A DNA stretch of 64,000 bases, taken from positions 6,006,882 to 6,070,881 of the forward strand of contig OZ025869.1 in assembly GCA_964019415.1 (NCBI GenBank), given 5' to 3'. The DNA is from Ianthella basta. Its lineage: Eukaryota > Porifera > Demospongiae > Verongiida > Ianthellidae. A program made the translations under genes and the position numbers. How positions within the stretch are numbered: the stretch's first letter is position 1; every line of letters begins with the position of its first letter. A model generated the notes under the pieces. The model made no database searches and had not been told where the DNA came from. It was given only the letters and a program-made list of their open reading frames with translations. Shown here one piece after another: positions 1,552-57,642 of this stretch.

Positions 1552-2789
1552 TCAATGCCTGTTGCTGCTGCCACTGTCAATGGTCCTGTTCATTTTCATA
1601 GCATGTGTCAGCTGACCCACTCTGCACATGAAGTTGCTTTTGGGACACACACTTTCCACTCTTTTTCTTGACCTTTCTACATCAAAATTACTTGTGTGGT
1701 ATCTGAAGAGTTTGTGGTCTTCATCAATTTGTTTAATGTATATACTCAGCCAACTCTTCAGGAGTATAATTATTTGCATCAATGAATGTGTGGTTGCCTG
1801 GTACCCATAAATACACCTCTGGTGGGCTGCAATACACTGGAATGGCACCACCCTTGTAGATTAATTTAAAGCAATTTTCTCGGAAATGTAGTCAGTTTGA
1901 ATGACATTTTCAAATGAAAGAACCATGATATGATACTTTTGATGATATTGACTAAGACCTCTCTCCAGTCATCATTCTTAACTGCTGGTATAGCTGGCAT
2001 ATTGTTCCAGCATTTGCCATATGACTCAATGTGCACTAGTTCTACTATCTTTTCATAATACCAAGTACAATCCTGAAATCCTTCCCATGTAGTTTTGCAG
2101 TCACTGGAAAACAGTGCAATTCCCTTTCTCTCATTTGGATCTGGTGACTGTATTTCCCCACTTTGCCACTCCTCAACAGGTAAGAAATAGAATAGCTCAC
2201 TGTATACTGCATCTGATGTGGGGTGGTGATCAATTTTTATGTCCGCTTTTTTAGTTGCTGAATGTATAATCCCGTATTCACCTTGATTAGCTTCCATGTT
2301 CAACACTGCTGTCATCTGCCCTGGCCAATACCTCACTGGAAAGGATGGAGAAATAGCCCTGACCTCTCTGAATACAACATCTGACTTTATATCAGAATGT
2401 TGTACTGTGCACCTTCCACCACTTGGAAGTTCCATGTACAGGGAATAGTTTCCTCAAAGTAGATGAAATTGTACCATAGTGCCAAGATGTGCCAAAGGAC
2501 TCAAGGTAAACACTGATACTGTGATTGTAAGATATTGGTGCCTCTGTATCTTTATATGGCAATGGTGCTCCAGTGGCAGTGTCATGAGTAGAGTTGTTGA
2601 TTGGGATGCTGATGATGAAGTAACCACTTTTTGAAAGCTGCATGTCATTGACTTCATGTACATCCACATGAGAAAAATGTTTGAAGTAAACACCAAAGAT
2701 GTGCAGACCCAAAAGGCTTCCTTTACTCTGCAGACAGATGTCATGTCTGTATACAAGTAGGGTAGCATAAAAAGTACATAAGAATACAT
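1552..2789 (-). pseudogene. Alpha-1,3-fucosyltransferase (GT10) pseudogene, unit A
   Basis: This is the decayed partner of the intact minus-strand gene at 46822-48051. Matching peptide runs through the whole length but in several frames. The N-terminus with signal anchor (T-D-M-T-S-V-C-R-V-K-E-A-F-W) is at about 2789-2640, the stem region in a second frame at about 2640-2445, the nucleotide-sugar-binding half (R-Y-W-P-G-Q, I-D-H-H-P-T-S-D-A-V-Y-S-E) at 2435-1940, and the C-terminus (Q-I-D-E-D-H-K-L-F-R-Y-H-T-S-N-F-D-V-E-R) at 1740-1552. Frames break near 2620, near 2440 and near 1940. The donor-binding signature read in unit B as V-L-S-F-E-N-I is scrambled here. Long coding-like similarity with multiple frameshifts indicates a dead duplicate, not an unusual intron pattern. 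Confidence 0.85.
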
Positions 2790-3410
2790 CCTTTGGTTGG
2801 GGATGTGTTCATTTAACTATTATGTTTTTGGGATTTTCTACTACTGAAATTTGCTTCCTTTCATCACTGAATGTTGCGCTTCAGTGATGCAACACCATGC
2901 AACTTGCACGAGGGCACATAAGTTAGCAATAGTTACAGTTAACTCCTCCTGTCAGTGAAATGCAATGACTGTATCCCACGCATGGACTTCTTTGATTCCA
3001 AGTGTTGATCTATATGGGCTAGCTATACTTGTCTACTTGAAATTGTATGCATGTGTGATGGCAGGCACATTTATGGTGCTGGGTTGGTAGCAGTGTAGCT
3101 ACATTGGTGGTATGTGATGGCAGCATCAGCAACAGAGGTATCTGGTGTATATACAAGTAATGGCAATAGTGGTATTCCAGTGGGTTTGTCTAGACTGTAA
3201 GGTGCACACACACCTGCACTGTGCTGTGTGTGTATTGCAACACACCACTGAAAGCTGTACTGGCAGGTATATACACAATGAGCTGTAAGCTTATTCTAGC
3301 AGTGAATATATAGTTATGGCAGTTAAGAATACTGAAGCCAGTGCTAGTGCTGCCCCTGGGGTGTGGCACAACACTCCCTCAGAATCAGATCTTCGCCTTG
3401 GGTGGTTGGG
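2790..3410. other. Spacer upstream of the fucosyltransferase pseudogene
   Basis: No gene seen. It contains a small hairpin (TCATCACTGAA at 2861 against TTCAGTGATG at 2880). A block of about 45 bp (2997-3045, GCTATATGGGCTAGCTATAC-like) recurs at 10984-11030. Confidence 0.4.
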
Positions 3411-3413
3411 TGG

Positions 3414-3626
3414 CTATGTTATTGTGGACGAACCTGGATAGATTAGCTGCACTGATTTGGACTCCTCGAATTCTGACAATTTCTTCTTGAGGTCGCAGTA
3501 CGACGAAAACTTCTCACCAACAACAAAAGTCCCGGATGAGTGGTCCTCTTTCACCAGATTGTGTGTGGCTTCCTCCTGTGAAAAATCCAGTTGATGTACT
3601 AGAGCTGGATTCTTTGAAACATCCAT
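3414..3626 (-). CDS. Small unrecognised ORF, possible exon or transposon-protein N-terminus
   Basis: A 70-codon ATG-initiated frame with ordinary, non-repetitive composition (G-E-K-F-S-S-Y-C-D-L-K-K-K-L-S-E-F-E-E-S). The pattern of a short aromatic/glycine segment followed by a lysine-rich helix resembles the N-terminal part of some transposase-linked (FAR1/SWIM-like) proteins, but this is a weak impression. The frame stops in A+T-rich sequence without a clear domain, so it is either a first exon (a GT follows CTATCCAG at about 3437) or a fragment. Confidence 0.3.
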   Translation of the reverse strand: MDVSKNPALVHQLDFSQEEATHNLVKEDHSSGTFVVGEKFSSYCDLKKKLSEFEESKSVQLIYPGSSTIT

Positions 3627-7582: not shown

Positions 7583-7711
7583 ATGAGGCTTCGGCGGGCT
7601 CTCGTATACGTAGCTTGCACAATTGTACTCGCCATTCTCAGTTCAGTGTGCCTTCGAATGTCATTGGTAAACGTGGACATCACTGTGTTGAGAGATACTT
7701 CATTTGGCAAG
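7583..7711 (+). CDS. Putative glycosyltransferase A, exon 1 (signal anchor)
   Basis: This 43-codon first exon is too short to stand out alone and was identified through its paralogue at 49428-49763. It encodes a basic start (M-R-L-R-R), a hydrophobic segment of about 18 residues (A-L-V-Y-V-A-C-T-I-V-L-A-I-L-S-S-V), and then V-D-I-T-V-L-R-D-T-S-F-G-K. It ends at a good donor (AAG|GTAGGTTGA). Unit B reads V-D-L-T-V-L-R-D-S-S-F-G-E with the same GTAGGTTGA donor, and the sequence just before both ATGs is similar (CAGTAACAG-like). The exon ends in phase 0, matching exon 2. It should make the protein a type II Golgi membrane enzyme. The stem is about 69 residues shorter than in copy B. Confidence 0.75.
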
Positions 7712-11118: not shown

Positions 11119-11257
11119 TGCATGCACTTGATTGTGATTTTGGCAACTCTGAGAATGTGCAAAATGTTTACAAGGTACGTAAGTTAATGTACTGTGCCAT
11201 TGTGTCAAAATAATTCTCATTCAATGCTCTGTTTTTGTTTTGTCTCATTTTAATCAG

Positions 11258-12268
11258 ATTCCTGACACTGTTGGAGTTACATGTTCAGAACTGAAAGTGG
11301 GAAATTCTACACCCTACCGAAACAAAGAGCGCTGCTGCAGGGAAGCTGAAGCTAAGCACCTACCTGAGCTGTGTGGACAGGTCAATGCTAGTGCTATTGG
11401 AAATGAATCCCATGTACAAGGTTGCACTTGTCATGACTTCATGGCTTGCAAGACAGTAGTTCTCACTTCTGCATCATCAAATCACTGGATTGAATCACTG
11501 GATGGCATTGGATCTGTGCAGAACATAATGCCAGATATGAAGATCATCATGATGGACATTGGACTGACCAAAGAACAAGTGGAACAGCTGCAACGATTAC
11601 GTAATGTTGAAATTCGAAAATTTCCATTTGACACTTATCCATCTCATGTGAGAGACCTGATGAAATATGCATGGAAACCATTGGCAATACAGAAGATACT
11701 AACAGAGTATGAAATTGTATTCTACATGGATGCAAGTATTAGGCTGAGGCGCCCACTTGTGGACATTCTCTTTCCAGACATACAAAAGTTTCCAATCCGA
11801 GTGAATGCCAACGGATTTTATGATGGAGCATTTACCATGGATGAAACTTATAAGCATTTAGGGGTAACTCGTAAGCAAGTGGGAAAACGCTTTCAAAAGG
11901 AAGGAAATGTTCAATTATACCGAAACTGTTCCTTTGTACATGAGCGAGTAGTGTCACCTTTAGTTGACTGTGCACTTCATGAAGAATGCATCGCCCCAAG
12001 TGGATCTTCACCTTTTGGCTATAATTTTGACAAGTACAAGGAGCAAGTTAAGCAGATTGATACCATTGAGGAATTCGCCTACATTGGCTGCCATCGTTTT
12101 GATCAAAGTGCATTGACAGTGGTTTTAGATAGGGAGTTTCACTTTCCCAATGACCATTATGTGGTGGACCCTGCAGGCTACAGCGAGACCATGGAAATAT
12201 GGAGGAATCCAACAAAGTGCTTTACTCTTTTCCTCATTGGTGATCATGCCAATAATACTCAAGAGTAA
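11258..12268 (+). CDS. Putative glycosyltransferase A, exon 2 (catalytic region)
   Basis: Begins after the acceptor TTTTAATCAG and stays open for 336 codons to TAA. No ATG lies at the exon's start (the upstream in-frame triplet is TTG inside the intron), so it must be spliced to exon 1, giving a protein of about 379 residues. Clear blocks are K-T-V-V-L-T-S-A-S-S-N-H-W (about residues 108-120), Y-A-W-K-P-L-A-I-Q-K (about 180-189) and F-Y-M-D-A-S-I-R-L (about 198-206). This order resembles the DUF1647-like putative glycosyltransferases of nematodes and other animals, where the aspartates of the last block may serve as a DxD-like site. That family link is from memory, unconfirmed. Many cysteines and N-glycosylation sequons (N-A-S, N-E-S, N-C-S) fit a lumenal enzyme. 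It is about 89% identical to copy B by eye, with substitutions spread out and no frameshift, so it looks functional. Confidence 0.8.
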   Translation: MPDTVGVTCSELKVGNSTPYRNKERCCREAEAKHLPELCGQVNASAIGNESHVQGCTCHDFMACKTVVLTSASSNHWIESLDGIGSVQNIMPDMKIIMMDIGLTKEQVEQLQRLRNVEIRKFPFDTYPSHVRDLMKYAWKPLAIQKILTEYEIVFYMDASIRLRRPLVDILFPDIQKFPIRVNANGFYDGAFTMDETYKHLGVTRKQVGKRFQKEGNVQLYRNCSFVHERVVSPLVDCALHEECIAPSGSSPFGYNFDKYKEQVKQIDTIEEFAYIGCHRFDQSALTVVLDREFHFPNDHYVVDPAGYSETMEIWRNPTKCFTLFLIGDHANNTQE

Positions 12269-13180
12269 TTATTCAACTGATGCAGAGGTGGTATATAGCC
12301 TATAGTATACAAAAGTAAAGGTACATAGGACGTATGCAATAGCTATAATTATGTAGTCACTTTAACTGCAGTGAGGCTTGCCTAAAACACTATAAGTTTT
12401 GTAGCTGTGTTCTTTAAGTATTACGGCGCTGAGGTGTATATGGATTTGGCCCATTTCAAAATGGCGGCCGGAAGTGGTCTGGGTACGAGATATTATTGTT
12501 ATACCCATCTGTTTTGTAGATAACTAGCACGTTTGTTTAGTGTTTAGCTACTAGCTAACAATGACAAGTATAGGCCTTTCTTTTGGCTGAGCAGCCCCTG
12601 CTCTATGTATGCTGTTTTGTCACTTTAATAATAATAATTATAATGCAAGAACAGACTTCTAGCAGACGTAGATCAGCCTGTGGCCATGCAGCCTTTCCCC
12701 CCCATACCTCCTGAGTGCCGCCAATGAAGCTGGGAAGCTGGAGAAATGTGGTAGCCTTGTCAGAGAGCCTTGAAGTTGACCATGCAAGTACAGTTGCCTA
12801 GATTCAACCTATTCCTTCACCCCAATAGCTATTGAATCTTCGGGAGCTTGTAGCCCACTTACTTTGGAGTTCCTAAGGGACCTCAGCAGCTGTCTCTGGC
12901 AGGCTACAGGCGAGTAGAGCTCATTGACCGACCTACTCCAGAGGCTGTCTGTGGTGGTTCAAAGAGGCAATTAATGCAGCATTCGTTTTGAGAGCAAGTG
13001 CCCACTTCTCCCCCCCGACTATCATTGCCCCCTATTGCCTGCATGTGTGCTCTGAGCATGACACTGCTTGTTCCTTATAATACTTAATTTCATATTTACA
13101 TAATATTATTTGTGTATTGTTCCATTATGGACTTTTAATTAACAGACTGTTTGATTACATAGGTTATACTGCAATATTAG
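12269..13180. other. Spacer downstream of glycosyltransferase A
   Basis: Holds the promoter-like motif listed at 12457, a GC-richer stretch (12580-13060) with only short frames, then A+T-rich sequence running into a copy of family R. No gene could be assigned. Confidence 0.4.
12457..12490 (+). promoter_or_regulatory. YY1 + ETS composite motif with possible first exon
   Basis: CAAAATGGCGGCCGGAAGTG joins a YY1-type site (AAAATGGCGGC) directly to an ETS/GABP site (CCGGAAGTG), a pairing typical of animal housekeeping promoters. The ATG in it starts a short frame (M-A-A-G-S-G-L-G) that meets a possible splice donor (CTGG|GTACGAG) at 12482/12483. No downstream exon was found, so a real gene start here is unproven. 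Confidence 0.35.
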
Positions 13181-14850
<1,670 letters not shown>

Positions 14851-16133
14851 AGATTTTTTAATGGTGCATGCTAATTCTACTACACAGAACAGACTAGTAT
14901 ACTGCGGACATGAATCAGGCTGGCCAAGAGGCAGCCGTTACGTCTCCTGGCCAGTCCTGTACGCTTGTGGGATGAATGTTTCAAACATGTTCCTTGCCCA
15001 TAGATTGGTATGGTTTCAATTTCACAAAGCCCTTGTATTCCTTAATATCTAACAGCAATAGGAGATTTTAACACCCCACAAAATCAGCATGCAAATAAAG
15101 AAAGCAGAGAAGAGCATATTGAAGGTTCTTTGGATTGACAATAGAACACTCAGCTTACTGGGTTCAGTAATGTCTTTCCTTTTTGTGCCCCTGACTATTC
15201 AAAATAAGCATTTGAACAACATGCAATACATTCTGTGCAGCCATGTACATAGCTAAATACAGCGACATAGACTATACTGCAACATTAGCATACACATGGA
15301 TGCAGGCGCCCTGCTAGTATAATAATATTCATGGTTACCACAATTATATTCATAATGTGCCCCCACTCCAAATGAAGGTGTGGTTATGGTCCCATAGCAC
15401 ATATACTGTTCAGATCTCCACTGATTGTTACTAGTTCAGTGTACCTGCTAGAGGCACTTATGACAGCAGCTGGACATGCATCCGTTCACATTACATAAAC
15501 TGCTACTTACCCATATCACTGTCACTGAGGACTAGCTGTGTCATCACAGGAACTGTAGCTACAACACATATGTTCAATCTTTACACGCAGTACCATGAAC
15601 ATACAAAATTATGCAAAATACTGTATTTATGTTAATATTTGTAGATATCTACATAAAACGTGTATACAAATATGCCTCTATTATATGCAGTTACTAGCAC
15701 TGTGTTGAAATGGTATATATTAGGGCCATGAAAAAACATACAAATTGCATGTGTGTATTAATTGTTACCTTTTCCACAAGGCACCCATTGAACCTGTCAC
15801 TATTCCTGTCGTGCTTGCAGCTGCGCTCTTAGAAGAGTTGGACTGACTCCTTCCGTGTACGGCACAAATTGTACAGGCACTAACTCCTCACAGAGGTGTC
15901 GGCCCGTTAACTGTGGCATATCGACTCCTAGTACCGACAGCCCAATCTGTCCATGGTCGAGGTGCACACAGCACTTGAGGTGGGGGTCAAGAGGGAAAGG
16001 GAATGAAGGGTAGAAGAAGGGGAAGGTGGAGGGGGGGAGAGGGGGAAGGACTCAGAGGGTAGCAAGGGACTGAGAAAAGTTGTGGGGCAAAAAGTACTGT
16101 CCCATGAAATTTTATACACAATTTGTCCACCAG

Positions 16134-16225
16134 TCCTGTGTATCGTCCTCTACCGCACCAACAAGGGTGCCTTCATCACTCTCACTTCCAGTCTGAGGCC
16201 TGAATTCACAACCTATGAGGCAGTT
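16134..16225 (+). other. Candidate coding exon conserved in three copies
   Basis: A 92-base segment with an acceptor (TTTGTCCACCAG) and strong donor (GCAGTT|GTAAGT). One frame is open: L-C-I-V-L-Y-R-T-N-K-G-A-F-I-T-L-T-S-S-L-R. The same exon is present at 43923-44014 (intact donor) and 59003-59094 (donor changed to GCAAGT). Its frame does not join directly to the next candidate exon at 16861, so an exon would be missing between them. I do not recognise the protein. Confidence 0.35.
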
Positions 16226-16294
16226 GTAAGTGCACTGCATGTGTGTGTATGCACTTCATGTATATGTGTGTATTCGCTTGTGTGTGTGTTTGTG

Positions 16295-16298
<4 letters not shown>

Positions 16299-16382
<84 letters not shown>
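16299..16382. repeat. (TG)n microsatellite
   Basis: About 42 TG units, present at the same relative place in the copies at 44.1 and 59.2 kb. Confidence 0.95.
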
Positions 16383-16386
<4 letters not shown>

Positions 16387-16860
16387 TGTGAGTATGTGTG
16401 CATGAGATGGAATTGCTGGAGGTGTCTATGTGTGCCTGTTCCCATCTTCCCCATCTCTAGCCCCACCCTAGTGTTCGGCCCATGCAGTATGCCAATCCCC
16501 TCTTAGGGCTGATGTGAGCTGAGCTACAGACAGACAGACAGACTGGTGTGCAGGTCCTGTATTGTGTAATTAATACTTCCATGAACATACAGTTATACAT
16601 CTTCTGTATTGTAATGTAGTTAATTTATGAATATTTCGTTGTACATAATTATTCAATGTAAATTTAACCCCAACCAAGAAGCAGTACATGTAGCACTCCT
16701 CCAGTCCTGTAGCCAGAGTGCTCCCTTTTGTACTCAAGCCTCGGTTTTGGGTGCATATGCCACTAGCCCTCTCTGTAACATATACTGAAACAGAAATATC
16801 CTTGTAGTAAGGGTTAATGTACTTGCCAGAATAAAAACACACACTGAAACTGTATCCTAG

Positions 16861-16980
16861 GTAATGAGTGCCTGTCAGTGAGACAGCGGCAGCTGCAGCA
16901 GCAAGATGAAGAGCTGTTCAACATTTCAAGCCACCGAAAGGACTTCAAAGAGAAGAAAGAGATCAGTAAAGATCACAGAG
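16861..16980 (+). other. Candidate coding exon, predicted helical (duplicated at 59738)
   Basis: A 120-base segment between an acceptor (TGTATCCTAG) and donor (CACAGAG|GTACGC). The best frame reads N-E-C-L-S-V-R-Q-R-Q-L-Q-Q-Q-D-E-E-L-F-N and then a Lys/Glu-rich helix, which suggests a coiled coil. In the copy at 59738-59857 most differences are silent (AAT/AAC, TCA/TCG, CAG/CAA), but one CGA has become TGA, a stop. Silent changes plus intact splice sites suggest a once-functional exon. The parent gene is unknown. Confidence 0.4.
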
Positions 16981-17061
16981 GTACGCTTGTTGCACTTGCA
17001 ATTGGAAGCACCTTCGTGTGTGAGCCCACTGCTTAATAGAAACTGCAGCACATTATTTTAC

Positions 17062-17460
17062 CCTCTAGATCTCATGCATTTGTGTTCACTGTAATACGCA
17101 TACAAGTATATTGTGTATACATGTGTGTGCTTGTGTGGTATGGTTGGTCATTTCTGGAGAGTCAAGCACTTCAATACTGTTCAGTCCTTTTGTCCAACAC
17201 ATCTCCTTGCAGTGCCAGTGGAAGAACCCTTACATTCAGGTCTTTTGCACCTTGGAACATGGCAGCAGGCATTCCACACTTTGAGTATTATCATCTCTAC
17301 TGTTCTACCGGCCTCTGTTCACCATATGTTACCTATAGAGCACATTCTAAAGTGTCCCTGTATACAGTATGTAGTGTGCGGATGCCTAATGTTCTATAGT
17401 AATGTGTGCATAAAAGTTCACATCTGTACTGATGTGTTGTCTTTGTACATGTACACACAT
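17062..17460. other. Sequence shared with unit B, between exon-like block and minisatellite
   Basis: Collinear with 59960-60345. A possible acceptor (TCTCCTTGCAG at about 17205-17215) is conserved and followed by a frame open for over 100 codons that runs into the minisatellite. It may be a terminal exon of the same unknown gene, but nothing in it is recognisable. Confidence 0.3.
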
Positions 17461-19170
17461 CTTGTTCCCTGTTGTGTACATGATGTTGAAGAGTCCATTC
17501 CAAGTCGTCTGAATCTGCCATTGTGTAATTGTGCATCCATTTCAAGCACTATTGTAAGCTTGTGTACACAGTGTTGAAGAGTTCATTCCAAGTCGTCTGA
17601 ATCCACCACTGTGTTGAGTGCATTCATCTCAAGCACTATTGTAAGCATGTGTACATGGTGCTGAAGATTTCATTCCGAGTCATCTGAACTCCCCATTGTG
17701 TAGATGTGCATCCATTTCAAGCACTATTGTAAGCATGTGTACACAGTGTTGAAGAGTCCATTCCGAGTCGCCTGAATTCCCCATTGTGTTGAAGTGCATC
17801 CATCTCGATCACTGTTGTAAGCATGTGTAAATGGTATTGAAATGTCCATTCCAAGTCGTCTGAATCCACCATTGTGTAGACGTGCATCCATCTCAATCAC
17901 TGTTGTAAGCATGTGTACATGGTGTTCAAGAGTCCATTCTGAGTCACCTGAATCTACCATTGTGTAGACGTGCATTCATCTCAAGCACTATTGTAAGCTT
18001 GTGTACATGGTGTTGAAGTATCCATTCCGACTCATCTGAATTCCCCATTGTGTAGACGTGTATCCCTCTCAAGCACTATTGTAAGCATGTGTACATGGTG
18101 TTGAAGAGTCCATTCCGACTCATCTGAATTCCCCATTGTGTTGAACTGCATCCATCTCAATCACTGTTGTAAGCATGTGTAAATAGTATTGAAATGTCCA
18201 TTCCGAGTCGTCTGAATCCACCATTGTGTAGACGTGCATCCATCTCAATCACTGTTGTAAGCATGTGTACATGGTGTTCAAGAGTCCATTCTGAGTCACC
18301 TGAATTCCCCATTGTGTAGACATGCATCTGTAGCAAGCAGACTTACCTTGTGTACTGTTGCATGACTTTCACATGTTGTGTTGCAACTCTTAATTGTTAA
18401 TATGTAATGACAAGATCTAGAACCTTCTAGGACCAATGTATATATACACGTGTACTGTACGCTCATGTGGTCCTTGTGTAATAATTGATCTGAGTCCATT
18501 TCAAGCACTATTGTAAGCTTGTGTACATGGTGTTGAAGAATTCATTCCAAGTCGTCTGAATTCCCCATTGTGTAGACGTGCATCCATCTCAATCACTGTT
18601 GTAAGCATGTGTACATGGTGTTGAAACGTTCATTCCAAGTCGTCTGAATCCACCATTGTGTAGACGTGCATCCATTTCAAGCACTATTGTAAGCTTGTGT
18701 ACATGGTGTTGAAGAGTCCATTCCAAGTCGCCTGAATCCACCATTGTGGTGAAGTGCATTCATCTCAAGCACTATTGTAAGCTTGTGTACACAGTGTTGA
18801 AGAATTCATTCCGAGTCGTCTGAATTCCCCATTGTGTAGACATGCATCCATCTCAATCACTGTTGTAAGCATGTGTACATGGTGTTGAAACGTTCATTCC
18901 AAGTCGTCTGAATCCACCATTGTGTAGACGTGCATCCATTTCAAGCACTATTGTAAGCTTGTGTACATGGTGTTGAAGAGTCCATTCCAAGTCGCCTGAA
19001 TTCCCCATTGTGTAGACGTGCATCCATCTCAATCACTGTTGTAAGCATGTGTACATAGTGTTGAAGAGTCCATTCCGAGTTGCCTGAATTCCCCATTGTG
19101 TAGACGTGCATCCATCTCAATCACTGTTGTAAGCATGTGTACATGGTGTTGAAGAGTCCATTCCTAAGTG
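17461..19170. repeat. 88-bp minisatellite array, unit A
   Basis: About 18 tandem units of 88 bp, each like GTAAGCATGTGTACATGG ... AGTCCATTCCGAGTCG ... CCCCATTGTGTAGACGTG ... CATCTCAATCACTGTT. Successive GTAAGC starts at 17641, 17729, 17817 and 17905 show the period. About 160 bp of unrelated sequence (18330-18490) interrupts it. Because 88 is not a multiple of 3, open frames across it only rotate and are not proteins. A second array is at 60345-62310. Confidence 0.95.
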
Positions 19171-20200
19171 GACTGTGTCCACTATTGTGAATAACAGTGC
19201 CTCCATCCCATTCGCTTGATTTGTAGCTGACCTGCTGGAATGTCTAATAGGGAGGCTATTTGTGAATGTCAATTATATCCGTGCTTTGTCACTATGCCTC
19301 CCAGTTACTCTTCTGGTCATGTAGCAATTGCAAGGAGGTGTGTGACTTCATGCAAAGCTTGGATCTTGACTGTATTACACAAGATTGATCAGGACAGACA
19401 TGCTCTGAAAACATGTAGCTGTTATCCATTTGTAGCAGACAAAGTGAAATGACCATGACTTGTGTCATTCATGCAGATATGTCATAGAGCCTTATGCATT
19501 ATTATGCAATTCTTTATGCAAATATGTGGGACTTAATAGGTTAATAATTATGGAGTCTGACTTCTGATACATTTATGTTCAATAATGTTACAGTACTTGT
19601 AATTATGCTCACACTATTTTGTGCATGTACAAACTACACTACAAACTTTGCTTATCTATCAGTTTAATTTATGTAATTATTTTCACGACACTTTCTGTGG
19701 TAATGTCTCACAATTTGTAATGGGTTCACAGTCTGCAACACACATATTACAAACATGTAAAATTTCCAAAAATCCCTGAATATAAAAGCTGTATGGACAT
19801 GCAATTGACATGCTGCATGTTATCACTTGCTCAGTGCAAGAAACATGAATGTTACATGCACAATATCTTTCGAATAGGGCACACTCCACCGGGCTTCTGA
19901 CTTTAGTAGTCTTCCAGCCCTTGTGTACCAGCATGATGGCATCGGGAAATGCCATTAACCTACCAGGCATAGTTGTCTTCTGGATGTGTTGTGTGCAGTT
20001 GGTAGATCTCAGACAGTGGTGTGTTAACGTATACCACTTTATTATGTGATCTGGCAATTGCAAACTGGCCTATGGTGAATAATTGTAGTGTTAGTGTACT
20101 GGGCACAGTGTGCACAGTGGAACCTGTCTAAGACAGCCACCTGTGAATCAGTTCGAACAGACCTTAATGGTGAGGTGGCTGCTCTACAGAGTTAGATTGT
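19171..20200. other. Tail of unit A, collinear with 62310-64000
   Basis: Near-identical to the end of unit B apart from the LINE present only there. At 20117-20180 lies CAGTGGAACCTGTCTAAG, which looks like the terminus of a Tc1/pogo-type MITE; the same sequence is at about 63930. The minus-strand frame 19683-20063 is preserved only in part in unit B and is not recognisable. Confidence 0.5.
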
Positions 20201-21880: not shown

Positions 21881-23223
21881 TTGTTTTTGCTGTGTCTTGA
21901 TCATTCTCAACATCGAACAGGTTTCACTAGTACATATTCTACCAGACAGGACAGACTTGTAGCTGACGTGGATCATGAAAGCAGTCAATATATATATTTC
22001 CCCTGTGCATGTTTGCATACAAATATTTTGTGGGATGTGCACTTTATATATACCCTTTGCCCATGGATTTGCACATTCTCGTTTTGTGGATTCAGGCTGG
22101 TATCCTCCCTAATATTTAATAGAAGTAGGGAGATTTTCATACCGATACTTCATGAATGCCTGCAAACTTGAGGAATTTGCAGAATAACATCCTGCAAAAT
22201 TAGCTGCATACACTGTAGAAAGCAAAGAACAGCACATTACATGAACGCTCTCTGGAGAGGATAGAGAACAAACAGTTGTCTGAGTACAGAATAGTGTTTA
22301 TATTATTGTGCTTGCCACTGATTATTGTACTAGCTATTAGTGATTCAGAATATATAGCAATATGAACAACATGCAATACACGCTCTGCATCTGTACAACA
22401 AGATACCTAGCACTATACCGTTACATAGAGTATGCAATATAATGTATAAGTATATATATAGTATACAACTGATAATTCTATAATACTCATAGTTACCTTA
22501 ATTATATTCATAGTGAGCACAAAGTCCATGTCAAGATGTAGTATTATTAATTTTATTACTAAGATGTCCTCTGAAAGAAACCTAGACTCACATGTAGATT
22601 CAACTGCTCAGTGGACTGGCTAGAGGGAACTTATGACAGCAGCTGGTCTTGCATCCATTCACACTACATAAAGTGCTATTTACCCATCCACTGTCACTGA
22701 GGGACTACGTATAATCTTGTCTCTGTAGAAACTTGTCACTAGAGAAACTGTAGCTATGTGCATTCATGCATATGGATACATATCACAACACACAGAACAC
22801 AGTGCAGTTAGGTAGATACAGTACCAGTATTATACAAAGAGTGTACAAAATACTGTATAATATGCATTTATTTCTGGAAACGTGCGTCAAAGGCATATAC
22901 AGCATATATGCAGTATATCGCAGTGCATTGTCCTGGAAACTGAGGCATATCGTCTCCCTGCTTGTACAGCTCAGTCTGTCCAGTATCAAGGTGCACACAG
23001 CACTTGATGTATGGGGCGGGGTCTGTACTGGAGACGACAAAGACCTACGTAGTGGTAAATGGGACAGGAGATAAAGGGTAAAAGGCGAAGGGAGTGAGGA
23101 AGTAAAATGATCGAGATTGAGAGACCTATCAAGAGTGCACTGGAACCTACCAATACACACACACAAACACACACATATACACACACACAAACAGACACAC
23201 ACACACACACACACACACACATG

Positions 23224-23296
<73 letters not shown>

Positions 23297-23300
23297 CCTC
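21881..23300 (+). repeat. Repeat family R, copy 4
   Basis: The left part (21920-22260) matches 40285-40740 and the right part (22480-23150) matches 1-690. It ends in a CA-rich tract (23155-23295) broken by CACACG and CACATG variants. Confidence 0.7.
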
Positions 23301-23405: not shown

Positions 23406-23449
<44 letters not shown>

Positions 23450-25051: not shown

Positions 25052-25053
<2 letters not shown>

Positions 25054-40269: not shown

Positions 40270-42243
40270 ATCCAGATGTTAAGCAGGTTTCAATAGTACA
40301 TATTCCACCACACAGGACAGACTTGTAGCTGACGTGAATCACAAAGGCAGTCATTATATATACTTCCCCTGTGCATGTTTGCGTACAAATATTTTGTGTA
40401 GCAGACATATATATATGGATCAAGCTGGTCATGTGCAGGTATATAGAAAGTCAATTATATACACTACATCCCCGGCCCTGTGCATGTGTGCATACAAATA
40501 TTTAGTGGGATGTGCTCTGCACATATACCCCTGCCCATGAGTTTGTACATTTAATTTTTGTGAGGCTGACCTGGTATCCTCCTAATATGTACCAGAAGTA
40601 GGGAGGTTTTCACACTAATACTTTCATGAATGTCTGCATGCGAACTTGCAAAATTTGCAAAAATTGCAAATTTGCTGCATACAATGTGGAAGGCAGAGAC
40701 CAACAAATTGAATGTTCTCTGAAGAGGATAGAGAGTAAACAGCTGTCTGAGTACAGAACAGTGTTCTTCCTCATTGTGCCATTGATTAGTGCATGTAGTA
40801 TAGCTACTAGTGATTTAGAATAGGAATGTGAGCAACACGCACTAATACACATTCCATACGTGTACAATAAGATACCTAGCATTATACAGTACGCAATATA
40901 ATTATGTAATATAATGTATAAGTAGTACTACACTGAAATAATATTCAGTTACCTAAATTATATTCATAGCGAGCAGGAAGATGTATGTGGCTATGAGTAT
41001 TATAGTATACTGTTAGACGTCTACTGACTATAAACAATTTCTAGCTTATAGTGTGTACCAGCTGGGGGCACACTATAATAATAATTATAGTATACTGTTA
41101 AGACATCCACTGCATGATTATAAACAATATCTCAGTGTACCAGTCGGGGGCACTTTCAACACCAACTGGCCATGCATCCCATCACACTACATAAACTGCT
41201 ATTTACCCATCCACTGTCACTGAGGACTAGCCATGTCATCACAGGAACTGCATGCAGTTGTGTGCACACATCCCTTCCATACGGATACATGTCATAAAAG
41301 GGCTACACACAGCACACAGTGCAGTTTGGTAGATACAGTACTAGTAATGTACAAAAACTATACAAAATTTGTACTATGCGCATTAAAAGTCACATACTCT
41401 ACACAGTTACACTGTGCTTGAAAGGGTGTATAAGGGGCCAAGAGCACAAACATACAAAACTGAATTGTTACTCTTTCCACAAGTCACCCATTGAACTGGT
41501 CACTCTTCCTGTCTTGCCTGAAGCTGTGCTCTTAGCAGAGTTGAGCCGACTCCTTTGGTGTATGGCACAAAATGCACAGGCATTAACTCCTCACAGAGGC
41601 ATCATCCTGGAAACTGGCGCATCATCTCGTACATATAGCCCAGTCTGTCCGGTGTCAAAGGATGAAGGGTAAAAGAAGGCAAAGGGAATGCGGAAGGAAA
41701 ATGGTTGAGATAAGAAACCTATCAAGAGTGCATTGGAACCTACCTATACACACACACAAATACACACACACAAACACAAACACATACACACACACAAACA
41801 CAGACACACACATGCACACACACATGTATGCACACGCTAATTACAATTACAATTACAATTACATTAACATTTCTTCAGTCCATCTTCATACATAGTAGTG
41901 TTTCAAGGTTCTTTCAAGAGCATGTGACGTCAGAATTGGTTTTATATATTGTCTGCCTGACTGAATATGCTCCATTAGTGCAGATGTAGCTGCTATGGAG
42001 AATACCTAAAGAGCTAGGTTGCACGAGTAGGGTAATCATGAGGTTTTATTCTGCAAAAGTCAGGGAGACTCTGGGACAAAGGAGGAGAAATGTAATTGTG
42101 TGCAATTGCATAATTTGGTATCATATTCAATTACATGAATGTAATCAACTACCATAACAATTACTTCAGCAAATATTTCTCAATTCCAGTTTAATTACAA
42201 TTACCTAGAAAAGTGTAATTCCAATTGCCATTACCACAACATT

Positions 42244-42301
<58 letters not shown>

Positions 42302-42600
42302 GTTTACCTAACGGTAGCCCTGTTTATAGGTTCAGGCAGGCTATATAATATAGAAAGGGCTGCCTTGTGTAACAACTGTTATGAATAGGTATTCAAAGGA
42401 GTAGCACAAAGTGACCATACAAAGGAGGACTATATGTGATGATGTCTGTACTGTGGCATTTGTGCAAAGCTATGTAACCGTTTGAAGTTTACGCAACAGT
42501 TCACCTTACTTTTGACTCTATGTCTTTCAACTGTGTGCTAGTGTAGAATGATCTCACTCCTAGCAAGCAATCCTTATCTGCATGAACGTGAACTGGAGGA
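40270..42600 (+). repeat. Repeat family R, copy 5
   Basis: The left part (40285-40740) matches copy 4. The right part (41090-42600) is collinear with 13300-14850, including the CA tracts (about 41750-41830 and 42243-42299) and TTTACCTAACGGTAGCCC after the second tract. A frame at 41319-41672 (S-P-I-E-L-V-T-L-P-V-L-P-E-A-V) is shared with copy 2 but not recognisable as a known protein. Confidence 0.75.
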
Positions 42601-44078
42601 GGGAAATGTCTAACAGATTTTTTAATGGTGCATGCTAATTCTACTACACAGAACAGACTAGTATACTGCGGACATGAATCAGGCTGGCCAGGAGGCAGCC
42701 GTTACATCCCCTGGCCAGTTCTGTACGCTTGTGGGATGAATGTTTCAAACATGTTCCTTGCCCATAGATTGGTATGGTTTCAATTTCACAAAGCCCTTGT
42801 ATTCCTTAATATCTAACAGCAATAGGAGATTTTCACACCCCACAAAATTGGCAAAACATTGCCTGCAAACTTTGCATGCAAATAAAGAAAGCAGAGAAGA
42901 GCATATTGAAGGTTCTTTGGATTGACAATAGAACACTCAGCTTTCTGGGTTCAGTAACGTCTTTCCTTTTTGTGCCGCTGATTATTCAAAATAAGCATCT
43001 GAACAACATGCAATACATTCTGTGCAACCATGTACATAGCTATACAGCGACATAGACTATACTGCAACATTAGTATACACATGGATGCGGGTGCCCTGCT
43101 AGTATAATAATATTCGTGGTTACCGCAATTATATTCATAATGTGCCCCCCAACCAAATGAAGGTGTGGTTATGATCCCATAGTACATATACTGTTCAGAT
43201 CTCCACTGATTGTTACTAGTTCAGTGTACCTGCTAGAGGCACTTATGACAGCAGCTGGACATGCATCCGTTCACGCTACATAAACTGCTACTTACCCATA
43301 TCACTGTCACTGAGGACTAGCTGTGTCATCACAGGAACTGTAGCTACAACACATATGTTCAATCTTTACACACAGTACCATGAACATACAAAATTATGCA
43401 AAATACTGTATTTATGTTAATATTTGTAGATATCTACATAAAACGTGTATACAAATATGCCTCTATTATATGCAGTTACTAGCACTGTGTTGAAATGGTA
43501 TATATTAGGGCCATTAGCAAATATACAAATTGCATGCGTGTATTAATTGTTACCTTTTCCACAAGTCACCCATTGAACCTGACACTATTCCTGTCGTGCT
43601 TGCAGCTGCGCTCTTAGGAGAGTTAGACTGACTCCTTCCGTGTACGGCACAAATTGTACAGGCATTAACTCCTCGCAGAGGTGTCGGCTCGTAACTGTGG
43701 CATATCGACTCCTAGTACCGACAGCCCAGTCTGTCCATGGTCGAGGTGCACACAGCACTTTAGGTGGGGGTCAAGAGGGACAGGGAATGAAGGGTAGAAG
43801 AAGGGGAAGGTGGAGGGGGGGGGGGGGAGAAGGGGAAGGACTCAGAGGGTAGCAAGGGACTGAGAAAGTTGTGGTGCATAAAGTGCCGTCCCATGAAATT
43901 TTGTACGCAATTTATCCACCAGTCCTGTGTATCCTCCTCTACCACACCAACAAGGGTGCCTTCATCACTCTCACTTCCAGTCTGAGGCCTGAATTCACAA
44001 CCTACGAGGCAGTTGTAAGTGCATTGCATGTGTGTGTATGCACTTCATGTATATGTGTGTATTCACTTGTGTGTGTGT

Positions 44079-44169
<91 letters not shown>

Positions 44170-44345
44170 ATGTGTGAATATGTGTGCATGAGAAGGAGTT
44201 GTTGGAGGTGTCTATGTGTGCCTGTTCCCATCTTCCTTATCTCTAGCCCCACCCCAGTGTTCGGCCCATGCAGTATGCCAATCCCCTCTTAGGACTGATG
44301 TGAGCTGAGCTACAGACAGACAGACAGACTGGTGTACAGGTCGTG
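42601..44345 (+). repeat. Repeat family R, copy 6
   Basis: Highly similar to 14851-16560 from the TCTAACAGATTTTTTAATGG block to the ACAGACAGACAGACTGG end. Contains the candidate exon at 43923-44014 with an intact GTAAGT donor, a 12-G run near 43816, and a TG tract (44077-44167). Similarity to copies 3 and 7 stops abruptly after GTATTGTGTAA at about 44355. Confidence 0.8.
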
Positions 44346-44355
44346 TATTGTGTAA

Positions 44356-46821: not shown

Positions 46822-48051
46822 TCAATGCCTGTTGCTGCTGCCACTGTCTATGGTCCTGTTCATTTTCATATCATGCGCCAGCTGACACACTCTGCACATG
46901 AAGTTGGCCTTAGGACACACACTTTCCACTCTTTTTCTTGACCTTTCTACATCAAAATTACTTGTGTGGTATCTGAAGAGGTCATCATCTTCATCAATTT
47001 GTTTAACGTACTCAGCCAACTCTTCAGGAGTATAATTATTTGCATCAATGAATGTGTGGTTGCCTGGTACCCATAAATACACCTCTGGTGGGCCGCGATA
47101 AACTGGAATGGCACCACCCCTGTATATTAAAGCAGTTTTCTCTGAAATGTAGTCAGTTTGAATGATATTCTCAAATGAAAGCACCATACGATACTTTTTG
47201 ATGATATTGACTAAGACCTCTCTCCAGTCATCATTCTTAACTGTTGGTATAGCTGGCATATTGTTCCAGCATTTGCCGTATGAATCAACGTGCACTAGTT
47301 CCACTACCTTTTCATAATGCCAAGTACGATTCTGAAATCCTTTCCACTGAGTTTTGCAGTCACTGGAAAACAGTGCAATTCCCTTTCTCTCCTTTGGATC
47401 TGGTGACTGTAATTCTCCCCTTTGCCACTCTTCAACAGGCAAGAAATAGCATAGCTCACTGTATACTGCATCTGATGTGGGGTGGTGATCAATTCTTAAG
47501 TCTGCTTCTTTCAGTTGCTGGAAGCCGTATGTGTAGATGCCATATTCTCCGCGATTAGCTTCCATGTTTAACACTGCTGTTATCTGCCCTGGCCAATACC
47601 TCACTGGAAATGATGGAGAAATAGCCCTGACCACTCTAAATACAACATCTGCATTAGTATCAGAATGTTGCATTGTGCACCTTCCACCGCTTGGAAGTTG
47701 ACAAGTACTGGGAATGGTTTCCTCAAAGTTGGTGAAATTGTGGCGTAGTTCCAAGATGTCATCTATTGTATTGAATGACTCAAGGTAAACACTGATACTG
47801 TGGTTGTAAGATATTGCAGCTTCGGTAACTTTGTATGGAAATGGATTTTCCGTGGCAGTGTCACGAGTAGAATTGTTGATTGGGATGCTGATGATGAAGC
47901 AACCACTTTTATGAAAGCTGCATGACTTTATGTACATCCACAAGAGAAAAATGTTTGAAGCAAGCACCAAGGGTGTGCAGATCCAAAAGGCTTCCTTCAC
48001 TCTGCAGACAGATGTCATGTCTGTATGCAAGTATAATATATAAAAGTGCAT
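46822..48051 (-). CDS. Alpha-1,3-fucosyltransferase (GT10 family), unit B
   Basis: Intact single-exon frame of 409 codons. It transfers fucose from GDP-fucose in alpha-1,3/4 linkage to GlcNAc-type acceptors in the Golgi, by family. Evidence: a signal anchor (about residues 22-41); the mid-region I-D-H-H-P-T-S-D-A-V-Y (187-197); V-H-V-D-S-Y-G-K-C (253-261); and the GT10 donor-site signature Y-R-M-V-L-S-F-E-N-I with T-D-Y-I-S-E-K (287-305), followed by G-G-A-I-P-V-Y-R-G-P-P (312-322) and H-T-F-I-D-A-N-N-Y-T-P-E-E-L-A (332-346). Length fits the family (350-430). Two ATGs compete: the second (codon 12, about 48018; GACATGACA) has the better context and puts the anchor nearer the start. The same region in unit A is a pseudogene. 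Sequons (N-H-S, N-R-T, N-H-T) suit a secreted-pathway enzyme. Confidence 0.9.
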   Translation of the reverse strand: MHFYILYLHTDMTSVCRVKEAFWICTPLVLASNIFLLWMYIKSCSFHKSGCFIISIPINNSTRDTATENPFPYKVTEAAISYNHSISVYLESFNTIDDILELRHNFTNFEETIPSTCQLPSGGRCTMQHSDTNADVVFRVVRAISPSFPVRYWPGQITAVLNMEANRGEYGIYTYGFQQLKEADLRIDHHPTSDAVYSELCYFLPVEEWQRGELQSPDPKERKGIALFSSDCKTQWKGFQNRTWHYEKVVELVHVDSYGKCWNNMPAIPTVKNDDWREVLVNIIKKYRMVLSFENIIQTDYISEKTALIYRGGAIPVYRGPPEVYLWVPGNHTFIDANNYTPEELAEYVKQIDEDDDLFRYHTSNFDVERSRKRVESVCPKANFMCRVCQLAHDMKMNRTIDSGSSNRH

Positions 48052-49427: not shown

Positions 49428-49763
49428 ATGAAGCTTAAGCGGACTATCGTATTCGTAGCAATAATTGTGCTAGTAATTCCTATTTTCTTGTTCCTGCGAA
49501 TTGTCAACTCCAACCAAAACTTGCCATCCCTAAACAATGTCCCCCCTATTGGATGGGAACAAATCCGACAACACGCAGTTCTCGACCAGGAGGTGGGTAA
49601 GGTGGCTGAGACTGAGTTGGATGGAATGGAGGTGACCGAGATTGCGTTAAGTGAAACTGAGCTGGACGACTCCGCCAAGAACCAAGTTGAACAAACTCGC
49701 ACACCGCGGCAGTTTAACCCAGACGTGGACCTCACTGTGTTGAGAGATTCTTCATTTGGCGAG
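49428..49763 (+). CDS. Putative glycosyltransferase B, exon 1 (signal anchor and stem)
   Basis: 112 codons starting M-K-L-K-R-T-I-V-F-V-A-I-I-V-L-V-I-P-I-F, a basic start plus a hydrophobic anchor, then a long acidic stem rich in E, D and T, ending V-D-L-T-V-L-R-D-S-S-F-G-E. The donor is GAG|GTAGGTTGA, identical in its intronic part to copy A. It ends in phase 0 and joins exon 2 at 56232. The extra 69 stem residues absent from copy A are in frame, so stem length is the main structural difference between the two enzymes. Confidence 0.8.
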
Positions 49764-50217: not shown

Positions 50218-51997
50218 TTGTTGATACTTGCCCTAGCAGGGCTTAAGAATCCGCAGCCAAAACGGGACGAGCGCCTTTCGTTCAAGAATTGGCAGACAGT
50301 AGAAAGAGCCGGAAATGCATCATCTTCGATTGCGCGCCGTTCACGGTTGGTAGGATCTGCTAGCGGAAAGATAATAATCATTGGTGACCGAACTGCAAGC
50401 GCTATAATAAGAACTAACTTCTGTGCTAGAAAGTGTCGGGAAGGACAGAGATTCGATCCACCAGGGACCTGCAAACTTCTGGAATGCTGATGAGAGCGGA
50501 TTTGCACTTTCCTTCAAGCCTGGGGAAGGTTGTGTCTACAATGAAAGCCCGCAATTTGTATGCAGTAACTGGCTACAGTAAGGAGCAAATCACCACTATC
50601 TGTGAGGGCTCTGCTTCTGGTGAAGTGATCCCACATATGCCCATCTTTGCTAAGCAATGATTTTCATACAATCTCTGGAGGGAGACCTGATGTGTACTTC
50701 AATAAATCTCAATCAGGCTGGATCAACACAGAACTGTTCTACAGCTGGATAGCCAAACACTTTGCACGGCAAGTAAAAAGACACCCAGTTGTGCTACTTG
50801 TCGATGGCCACAAGTCCCACATTAATGTGGAGACTGCCAAGTTCTGCAAGGACAGCACCCATCTGTACTGCCTTCCTCCTCACTCATCTCACATCACGTA
50901 GCCTCTAGATGTTGGGTTCTTCAAGGGCTTGAAGGATTCATGGAAGAGATCATGCTAGCAGTACATATATAGACACACGCCCCAGTCACTTCATGGCTAC
51001 TAGTCACATAGTGACTGGGGTGTGTCAAAGCAGGTTTTTCCAAGCGTTTTCAAGAAAGCATTGCTCCAAGCAGTGCAACCCAGCTCGTCAATGCTTTTCG
51101 TGCTGCTGGGATTTGCCCACTCAACTTCAGCTGTGTTCCTGAACGTCGGCTTGCCCCTTCCTGAGTATACACAAGTATTCACGCTGATGCAGTCGAATGC
51201 AAGAGCTTGTCCCATCCCTCCAAATGCCATTCTGCCTGTGCACTGGCTGAGGTCGAATCAGTGCTCAGTAAAGAAACGTTGGAGATATATCAAACAGGAC
51301 ACTAGGAGGAGTATGACCTGAAGACTGACACTGCCTACAATGTCTGGAAAAGGCTAAAAGATGCTCAGCTGTGCAAATTGAATCCAGTTAGCAAAGAGGT
51401 TCTGCCTCCCTTCAGCCAGAGTGATGAGGATTCACAAGCAACAGTACCCACTGTTAGCATTCAAGTAACACCAGGCCAAGCAACAGTCACAGTTGAATCT
51501 GTACTGGATACCATTCATTCTGGTCTATCCACGAAAGGCAGCTGCAGAAGGGAAGAAAGGCAAATCATCTGAAATGCCTGGGCATCTGTCTAGTCACCAA
51601 TTGATTGCTATCCTAGAAACCAATAAGAGAGAGGATCCGGAGGAGGAGGATAAGAAAGCTAAAGTGAAAGCTGAGCGGGAAGAAAAAAGGAAGACAAGAC
51701 AGAAAAAAGGGAAATAGGGTGATTGAGAAAGAAAAGAAACTGCAGGAGCGAGAAACGTGCATGGCCAAGAAAAAGACACAAAGAACAGGCAGAGCGAAGG
51801 CAGACATACCTGTGCAGATTAATACTGGAGAAGCAAATGAAGGGGTTTGCGCCACCTGTGGAACTGATGAAGAGGGCACTTGGATTTGCTGTGACAGTTG
51901 TTCCAAACAGCATCATCTTTGTTGTGTAGGGATATTTGACTCTAGCAACCTAGTGCAGTCCTTTGGAAGTGCGCTGAATGTTGATCCTTGGTTGTAA
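50218..51997 (+). pseudogene. Pogo/Tigger-like transposase pseudogene with C-terminal PHD finger
   Basis: Pieces of one DDE transposase appear in order but in different frames: N-A-D-E-S-G-F (near 50484; first catalytic D), a segment around 50540-50650 (Y-A-V-T-G-Y-S-K-E-Q-I-T), V-V-L-L-V-D-G-H-K-S-H-I (about 50790; second D), L-P-P-H-S-S-H-I-T, then a stop codon and P-L-D-V-G-F-F-K-G-L-K (third D, about 50905), then V-N-A-F-R-A-A-G-I-C-P-L-N (about 51095). A Lys/Glu-rich coil follows, then a PHD-type zinc finger at about 51848-51940 (C-A-T-C-G-T-D...W-I-C-C-D-S-C...H-H-L-C-C-V-G). At least two frameshifts and one in-frame stop show it is dead. Terminal repeats could not be placed. Its origin is DNA-transposon insertion into the intron, after or around the A/B duplication, as intron A lacks it. 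Confidence 0.8.
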
Positions 51998-56052: not shown

Positions 56053-56231
56053 TATTACACAATTTGGATTAGGGTGTGTACACTCGTCACTTAAAAACTT
56101 GTATCCAGAAGTAATATTAGTCCTCAGTCCTAATATTAGTCCATAATAGTCCTCAGTGCCATTTTGCAGTCATATGAAATTCAATATGCTTATCATGTAT
56201 TGTCATTCAGTGCTTTGTCTCATTTAATTAG

Positions 56232-57227
56232 ATACCGGACACTGTTACTGCTATGTGTTCAGAACTGACAGTGGGAAATCCTACGCCCTACCGAAACAAG
56301 GAGCACTGTTGCAGGGAAGCTGAAGCTAAGCACCTACCTGAGCTGTGTGGACAGGTCAATGCTAGTGCTATTGGAAATGAATCCCATGTACAAGGTTGTA
56401 CATGCCTTGACTTCATGGCTTGCAAGACAGTAGTCCTCACTGCTGCATCATCAAATCACTGGATTGAATCACTGGATGGCATTGGATCTGTACAAAACAT
56501 AATGCCAGATATGAAGATCATCATGATGGACATCGGACTGACTGAAGAACAAGTGGAACAGCTGCAACGATTACGTAATGTTGAAAATCGAAAATTTCCA
56601 CTTGACACTTATCCACCTCATGTGAGAGATCTGCAAAAATATGCATGGAAACCATTAGCAATACAGAAGATACTGTTAGAGTATGAAATTGTATTCTACA
56701 TGGATGCAAGCATTAGGCTGAAGCGCCCTCTTGTGGACATTCTCTTTTCAGACATACAGAAGTTTCCAATCCGAGTGCATGCCAATGGATATTATGATGG
56801 AGCATTTACCAGGGATGAAACCTATAAGCATTTAGGGGTAACGCGTAAGGAGGCTGGAAAGAAATTCCAGAAGGAGGGTGGTCTTGCAATTTTTCGAAAC
56901 TGCTCCTTTCTACATGAGCGAGTAGTGTCACCTTTAGTTGACTGTGCACTTCATGAAGAATGCATTGCCCCAAGTGGATCTTCTATTTTTGGCTGTAATT
57001 TTGACAAGTACCAGGAGCAAGTCAAGCAGATTGATACCATTGAGGAATTTGCCTACATTGGCTGCCATCGTTTTGATCAAAGTGCATTAACCGTGATTTT
57101 AGATAGGGAGTTTCACTTTCCCAATGACCATTATGTTGTGGACCCTGCAGGCTACAGCGAGACCATGGAAATATGGAAGCACCCAACAAAGTGTTTCACT
57201 CTTTTCCTCAATGCCAGCAATATCTAA
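56232..57227 (+). CDS. Putative glycosyltransferase B, exon 2 (catalytic region)
   Basis: Follows the acceptor CATTTAATTAG and encodes 331 residues to TAA; with exon 1 the protein is about 443 residues. Starting at the internal ATG (56253) would lose the anchor, so the spliced model is preferred. It carries the same blocks as copy A: K-T-V-V-L-T-A-A-S-S-N-H-W (about 177-189) and F-Y-M-D-A-S-I-R-L (about 267-275). By eye it differs from copy A at about 35 of 325 residues, with one cluster (G-G-L-A-I-F-R-N-C against G-N-V-Q-L-Y-R-N-C) and a different C-terminal tail (N-A-S-N-I). Reading frame intact. Role inferred: lumenal sugar transfer of unknown specificity. Confidence 0.85.
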   Translation: MPDTVTAMCSELTVGNPTPYRNKEHCCREAEAKHLPELCGQVNASAIGNESHVQGCTCLDFMACKTVVLTAASSNHWIESLDGIGSVQNIMPDMKIIMMDIGLTEEQVEQLQRLRNVENRKFPLDTYPPHVRDLQKYAWKPLAIQKILLEYEIVFYMDASIRLKRPLVDILFSDIQKFPIRVHANGYYDGAFTRDETYKHLGVTRKEAGKKFQKEGGLAIFRNCSFLHERVVSPLVDCALHEECIAPSGSSIFGCNFDKYQEQVKQIDTIEEFAYIGCHRFDQSALTVILDREFHFPNDHYVVDPAGYSETMEIWKHPTKCFTLFLNASNI

Positions 57228-57522
57228 AGTAGTTACTCAACTAGGTTTTACTATAGTATAATAGTATAATAATTATTATACTGTAGTAAATAGTTATTAT
57301 ACTATAGTATATTATACTGTATTTTATATTGTATAATATTCTATAGCCTGTAGTATCGTATAGAGATTGAATACATAATACCTGGTATGAGCATGATTAT
57401 AGTCTTGACAATAGCTATATAGCCACTTTTAATTTATATAGCTGCATTTGCCTGTTCGAAACTATACAACGTTCATAGCTGCATTCTTTTGTATTGTCTT
57501 ATATGCATTGTACTTTCGTCAG
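57228..57522. other. A+T-rich spacer between glycosyltransferase B and a third relic
   Basis: Tandem TATAGTATAATA-like words (57255-57330). 57480-57522 resembles an intron end and finishes in TTTCGTCAG, equivalent to the acceptors of exon 2 in A and B. Confidence 0.5.
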
Positions 57523-57642
57523 ATTCTGACAATGTCACATTTTTATAACTATGTTCAGAGTTGAAAATGGGCAATAAACCTAACCCTTGTGATCATAACA
57601 AAGAGCAATGTTGCCAGGAAGCTGAATCACAATTCCTACCTG
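57523..57642 (+). pseudogene. Truncated third copy of the glycosyltransferase exon 2
   Basis: After TTTCGTCAG the sequence ATTCTGACAATGTCAC is a frameshifted form of the exon 2 start, and then reads in frame C-S-E-L-K-M-G-N-K-P-N-P-C-D-H-N-K-E-Q-C-C-Q-E-A-E, matching C-S-E-L-K-V-G-N...N-K-E-R-C-C-R-E-A-E of A. It ends after F-L-P, exactly where a family R copy begins. It is more diverged than A and B are from each other, so the gene family once had at least three tandem members. Confidence 0.8.

Follow-up and report, generated by a model that had tools for sequence, protein, structure and literature searches.

In the genome of the sponge Ianthella basta, genes of four kinds, namely GT10 fucosyltransferases, GT37/GT23-like members of the fucosyltransferase superfamily, DUF1647 proteins and DxD type II-like proteins, lie interspersed on contig OZ025869.1 (C2 below), within and around a window of 64,000 nt that we analyzed (C2:6006882-6070881; coordinates without a contig prefix are positions 1-64,000 of this window). 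We found that the locus is real and locally expanding, and that it had been partly mis-described by the original prediction, which had been made from the letters of the window and had read it as a cluster of four kinds of glycosyltransferase. Our results make it probable that the window belongs to a mixed cluster of about 300 kb of predicted Golgi-type genes, which descends from one founding association and was subsequently shaped by block duplication and birth-and-death decay.

Results

Extent and history of the cluster

We searched the 209 Mb assembly (96 contigs) for members of the four families; the resulting own-genome match lists are lower bounds throughout. The limits of the cluster had been predicted at 1552 and 57642, but the matches continue past 57642 and span C2:5.918-6.216 Mb, where the copies, intact and broken together, number about 30. 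Part of the cluster is repeated in inverted orientation at C2:3.483-3.568 Mb (~80 kb, matching about C2:5.938-6.019 Mb). When grouped into places, the own-genome matches on C2:5.918-6.216 Mb amount to at least seven GT10, at least 11 DUF1647, at least 10 DxD and at least three GT37-like places, and further GT10 scraps lie in the cluster beyond these. Two full-length GT10 copies, five DUF1647 second exons, two full-length DxD copies and three GT37-like copies are free of internal stops over the match, and the remaining cluster copies are broken or partial. A TAG reported in a DUF1647 copy of the window precedes the splice acceptor and so falls outside exon 2. No additional copy was found in the ~10 kb past either cluster edge. 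The 36 kb of the cluster outside the window that we inspected by eye contain transposon-like open reading frames (ORFs), the four kinds being represented there only by an already known exon 1 and by scraps of 19-23 residues. GT31 (PF01762) has no match in the cluster, its six genome matches lying at two other places.

The alignments and trees comprised only part of the genome's members of each family (12 DUF1647, 6 DxD and 13 GT37-like rows in the alignments, and 12 rows in each of the DUF1647 and GT37-like trees). In these trees, the C2 DUF1647 copies (5 of 12 rows) form a single branch with a support of 99/100, as do the C2 GT37-like copies (3 of 12 rows, 98/100). All DxD matches in the genome (23/23) are located on C2, namely within the cluster and its inverted copy and as two partial copies at 4.54 and 4.63 Mb. 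The cluster contains nine GT10 pieces longer than 100 residues that share 64-92% identity with the window copy, compared with at most 53% for comparable pieces elsewhere. Outside C2 the families are found separately: in the counted rows, no other place had two of them within 100 kb, the nearest being a GT10 and a GT37-like member 182 kb apart on contig C22. Because the C2 copies form single branches, the DxD family is restricted to C2 and the families are separated elsewhere, we conclude that the grouping probably arose once and spread by block duplication.

Two units recur in the cluster. A GT37-like copy and a DxD copy are paired three times, always in this order, and at five places GT10 and DUF1647 exon 1 face each other head to head. 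In the window, about 1.4 and 4.8 kb separate their starts. A tight two-way promoter between GT10 and DUF1647 was not supported, as the two GT10 copies cease to be similar 56 bases ahead of the intact start and the spacings differ. According to our working model, one GT10, one DUF1647, one GT37/GT23-like and one DxD type II founder would have become adjacent once, and this repeat- and transposon-bearing neighborhood would then have multiplied through block and tandem duplication, with two recurring units, one having GT10 and DUF1647 exon 1 on opposite strands and the second a GT37-like gene followed by DxD. Part of the copies would be held by purifying selection, with many others decaying. In this model, the GT10 and GT37-like enzymes would cap or branch Golgi glycans from GDP-fucose, and DUF1647 and DxD would probably be GT-A-type transferases acting on secretory glycans. 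The anatomy of the genes and the history of their copies are shown by our data; catalysis, Golgi residence and a common pathway are predictions. Pairwise dN/dS values (Nei-Gojobori) were 0.25-0.49 among the five C2 DUF1647 copies compared (10 pairs) and 0.29-0.50 across three DxD pairs; with values of 0.25-0.50, constraint (purifying selection) is kept on the copies of both families.

The assembly itself might contribute to these numbers. The inverted C2 copy agrees with its counterpart at 99.6-99.9% in three of the pairs compared and at 97.6% in the fourth; it may stem from a recent duplication or be a haplotype that the assembly retained. Over the 4.3 kb compared, taken from both ends of 11502-29335, contig C93 matches the window at 100% with equal spacing, an identity from which we judge it to be redundant assembly sequence; it is bordered by N, which may be an assembly gap. 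Both observations would be expected if copy number were largely an assembly effect, with leftover alternative haplotypes mimicking duplication. We regard this explanation as very unlikely, because similarity between the two window units is only 87-91%, other C2 copies are 81-94% alike in protein, which is far for plain alleles, and are arranged in series, and the four kinds occur within one window that is free of N.

Gene anatomy in the window

The intact GT10 gene (46822-48051, minus strand) encodes a protein of 409 aa with an N-terminal hydrophobic anchor and matches PF00852 with an E-value of 2.2e-24 in the Pfam scan (86.5 bits, gathering cut-off 23.9). In these features, and in its PDB match to a FUT9 structure (8d0o, E 9.9e-10), it resembles α-1,3/1,4-fucosyltransferases of family GT10, and it would be predicted to transfer fucose from GDP-fucose. 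The window copy is part of a local group in a large family, with 47 matches genome-wide versus six for GT31. A GT10 pseudogene with a frameshift and internal stops is located at about 1555-2771 (minus strand); in tblastn with the intact window copy it aligned at 61% across two frames, with one TGA and one TAA within the pieces. The predicted pair of GT10 gene and pseudogene was thus borne out. Elsewhere, at C11:2.739-2.825 Mb, at least 12 GT10 genes follow one another in tandem over 85 kb, 11/12 of them without stops in the match, and two GT10 pairs of equal or near-equal scores lie 28 kb apart at C6:5.4187-5.4231 and 5.4466-5.4510 Mb, probably as a result of recent tandem duplication.

Two DUF1647 copies and a relic, also part of the original prediction, were confirmed, all on the plus strand. 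In gene a, the putative exon 1 (7583-7711) is a 43-codon open frame with the layout M-RLRR, hydrophobic stretch and very short stem, which runs up to a phase-0 GTAGGT donor; exon 2 (11258-12268; ORF 11240-12268) follows an AG acceptor and matches PF07801 with an E-value of 5.5e-16. In gene b, the putative exon 1 (49428-49763) has 112 codons that encode an anchor and stem (M-KLKR, hydrophobic stretch, stem) and ends at the same type of donor, GTAGGT in phase 0; exon 2 (56232-57227; ORF 56253-57227) follows an acceptor reading ..ttaattag, begins with ATACCG and matches PF07801 with an E-value of 1.6e-14. The two copies reach 59 and 54.3 bits (gathering cut-off 25.7) and so qualify as DUF1647 proteins, and PF07801 is matched by 12/12 aligned members, the Pfam model spanning just ~80 residues in these proteins. 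The relic (57522-57641) was detected by tblastn at 52-55% over 38-40 aa.

All intact proteins had been described as single-pass Golgi-type proteins. This does not hold for the DUF1647 domain exons, which lack a membrane anchor; the anchor is encoded by a separate upstream exon, with GT...AG sites in phase 0, and we infer that the two exons are joined by splicing. The first exons of genes a and b are 93% alike across 44 bases at the donor end. As exon 1 of gene a has 43 codons compared with 112 in gene b, the domain of gene a would lie near the membrane. The gene b-type exon 1 has 11 matches in the genome, every one on C2, and 9/11 are followed on the same strand, at a distance of 1.2 to about 30 kb, by a DUF1647 exon as the next downstream exon. 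As the widest of these intervals holds GT37-like and DxD copies, that exon pairing is uncertain. A decayed DDE_1 transposon resides in the gene b intron (50629-51994), where a transposase fragment (50629-50898, plus strand; PF03184, E 3.9e-11) is followed by a sub-threshold PHD-finger ORF (51668-51994).

The DxD type II-like protein (32672-33538, plus strand) is encoded by an intact ORF of 288 aa with an N-terminal hydrophobic stretch and a DTD motif (IVRDTDSR), in line with the predicted DxD type II architecture. Searches of Pfam, NCBIfam and PHROGs gave no match for it, and the DxD profile matches nothing in PDB. A single-sequence PDB search gave one weak match (E 0.054) to a putative glycosyltransferase of PBCV-1, which we take to be A064R. 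No relatives of either the DxD or the DUF1647 protein were confirmed in viral and prokaryotic collections at the sensitivity used, and acquisition of either from such sources was hence unsupported at that sensitivity.

The GT37/GT23-like fucosyltransferase ORF (28773-30161, plus strand) scores below the Pfam cut-offs of both reference families (16.1 versus 23.4 bits for XG_FTase, PF03254, and 17.5 versus 27.6 bits for FUT8, PF19745). At E-values up to 0.1, XG_FTase was matched by 10/13 family members (best 1.1e-4) and FUT8 by 5/13. When the 13-member profile was compared with PDB, it returned 13 sequences at E-values up to 10, of which 13/13 are named fucosyltransferases and 12/13 have an E-value <1. 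The top matches are three galactoside 2-alpha-fucosyltransferase entries of GT37 type (6.3e-6 to 7.9e-6), presumably plant GT37 enzymes; NodZ and FUT8 structures were matched weakly, and the profile-PDB alignments consist of two short motif stretches. Judged by this profile, the ORF belongs to the fucosyltransferase superfamily (GT23/GT37/GT11/NodZ/O-FucT), resembling GT37 xyloglucan fucosyltransferase, GT23 FUT8 and NodZ, but given its scores below both cut-offs it is not demonstrably a member of GT37 or GT23 proper.

Support for enzyme function

Several results weigh against our account of the locus. The kinship of the GT10 copies was judged from identity and not from a tree, and one more GT10 relic in the cluster is just 28% identical over 147 residues, which does not fit a young C2 branch. 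The window GT37-like copy has lost its start frame: relative to one C17 copy and two further copies on C2, it has gained 2 nt and lost 3 nt immediately past the conserved ATG (28744), which is out of frame and runs into a stop, so that the 462-codon frame starts at TTG. Thus, its predicted superfamily stands and its predicted intactness does not. In the two other C2 copies the conserved ATG is in frame; contig C93 is identical to the window at this start region and, being redundant, is not independent evidence. In addition, dN/dS of the GT37-like copies was 0.55-0.62 in three C2 pairs and 0.97 in one C17 pair, and these copies appear to be either under relaxed constraint or too young for a verdict. 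For the DxD protein, the predicted model (6 rows) was unusable, with a mean pLDDT of 31.2. The DUF1647 exon 2 structure (12 rows) was likewise poor (mean pLDDT 41.6); a Foldseek search with this low-confidence model gave no match below 0.001, the two best being a dehydratase and the third LgtC (E 0.021). A DUF1647 profile search of PDB found LgtC, a GT-A enzyme, at an E-value of 0.83, ranked below a nucleoside phosphorylase (E 0.23).

These searches bear on whether DUF1647 and DxD are sugar transferases at all. If they were not, the locus would consist of two fucosyltransferase kinds with unrelated secretory neighbors. This would agree with the listing of DUF1647 in Pfam as a family of 'unknown function', with top fold and profile matches of DUF1647 that are not sugar transferases, with the missing family matches of DxD and with hhalign, which detected no relation between the two proteins and left a single common family unsupported. 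On the other hand, profile and fold searches both returned weak LgtC signals for DUF1647, the DxD protein combines a hydrophobic N-terminal stretch with a DTD motif and the PBCV-1 match, and DUF1647 genes are present in the glycosyltransferase clusters of Caenorhabditis elegans, as far as the available text of that report goes (PMC7614267). We consider it unlikely that the two are not transferases. For DUF1647, the hints at a GT-A sugar transferase are weak and the assignment is unproven; for DxD, family, profile and model searches all failed to reveal a glycosyltransferase domain or fold, leaving its enzyme class, as opposed to its predicted architecture, likewise unproven. Hence, two of the four proposed kinds of glycosyltransferase are supported. 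The original prediction had named two or more kinds not being sugar transferases as evidence against it, and with two kinds unconfirmed as enzymes this applies in part.

Chance and co-selection

For the chance test, matches within 500 kb of each other were counted as one place, and contig C93, small same-gene pieces and the inverted copy at C2:3.48-3.57 Mb were excluded. Random placement of the resulting 16, 6, 7 and 2 independent family places brought all four families within 64 kb in 0/200,000 trials; for a span of 300 kb, this happened in 4/200,000. Since the families had been chosen because they were found together, a look-elsewhere simulation was needed beside this family-specific test. 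Assuming 100, 200 or 400 glycosyltransferase places, totals that are our own assumption, a 64-kb span with four families occurred in 2, 17 and 248 of 3000 simulated genomes, and a 300-kb span in 104, 1144 and 2988 of 3000. The grouping exceeds chance strongly for the named families and only mildly once all glycosyltransferase places are counted.

The original prediction had taken the grouping to suggest co-selection. In such a locus, the four kinds would act one after another on a single fucosylated glycan of the surface or matrix that is specific to the species, such as an adhesion glycan of the glyconectin type, their linkage being kept by co-regulation or co-inheritance. Consistent with this, all four kinds occur together only here among the own-genome matches, their span was not reproduced by random placement within 64 kb, and GT10 and DUF1647 are repeatedly arranged head to head. 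Moreover, two kinds are fucosyltransferase-like, and the adhesion glycans of sponge glyconectins are described in the available part of a review as species-specific, sharing fucose and sulfated or pyruvylated hexoses (PMC7828597). However, duplication of whole units keeps an arrangement without selection, the distances between GT10 and DUF1647 starts are loose, many copies are dead, GT10 and DUF1647 also form separate arrays elsewhere in the genome, and the look-elsewhere correction weakens the placement statistics. Given that the grouping arose once and units were copied whole, the copies are not independent votes for selection. What stands of the suggestion is that non-homologous kinds adjoin beyond family-specific chance; the copies themselves come from block duplication. 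We consider a co-selected locus unlikely, and a joint fucoglycan pathway a possible and fair hypothesis. A bolder version, in which a fast-evolving sponge locus of four unrelated, block-inherited transferase kinds would together produce a fucosylated recognition glycan specific to the species or the individual, with duplication and loss altering self-recognition and with DxD and DUF1647 as two new transferase families, appears improbable to us.

Other features of the window and assembly

We listed 87 other ORFs of at least 85 codons in the window, of which 21/87 were scanned against Pfam. They yielded the DDE_1 piece and the sub-threshold PHD finger of the gene b intron, a sub-threshold reverse transcriptase and one chance-level match. 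The prediction of hardly any other gene holds at this depth, at which short exons would escape. When the window was compared with itself by blastn, a non-coding block at 13301-16569 was 91% like a second copy at 41080-44355, parts of which are 89-91% like C2:6.148-6.158 Mb, and a further stretch at 14835-17645 was 91% like 57660-60520. An 88-bp satellite array (17473-19164, also 61669-62312) adjoins the duplicated blocks. Elsewhere in the assembly, contig C96 is mitochondrial, with cox1 identified by Pfam and open under code 4, which differs from the mitochondrial code of nematodes, and tRNAs by ARAGORN; its neighboring genes, named by eye, lie in a sponge-like order. A silicatein-like query gave 13 own-genome matches, three loci of which were read and are cathepsin-type, which lends no support to a siliceous sponge.

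Discussion

Physical grouping of such genes had been called rare in animals, which is too strong. The 'glycoclusters' of C. elegans (C13A2, K06H6 and T15D6) contain mixed putative glycosyltransferases including DUF1647, according to the available text (PMC7614267). As in that nematode, the sponge locus joins different CAZy families, DUF1647 among them, in an animal genome and includes several members of one family; it differs in its composition of GT10, GT37/GT23-like and orphan DxD genes and in having multiplied through block duplication. A literature search on sponge glycosyltransferase and fucosyltransferase expansion returned no title concerning such a mixed cluster.

Our analysis flags DUF1647 and the unnamed DxD family as enzyme candidates. 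The available text of the glyconectin review names no gene that makes glyconectin glycans (PMC7828597). If the cluster does write one glycan, it would provide a genetic handle on species differences in adhesion glycans. Even if it does not, the locus illustrates how a mixed cluster of glyco-genes may originate, through one founding event followed by block duplication and decay.

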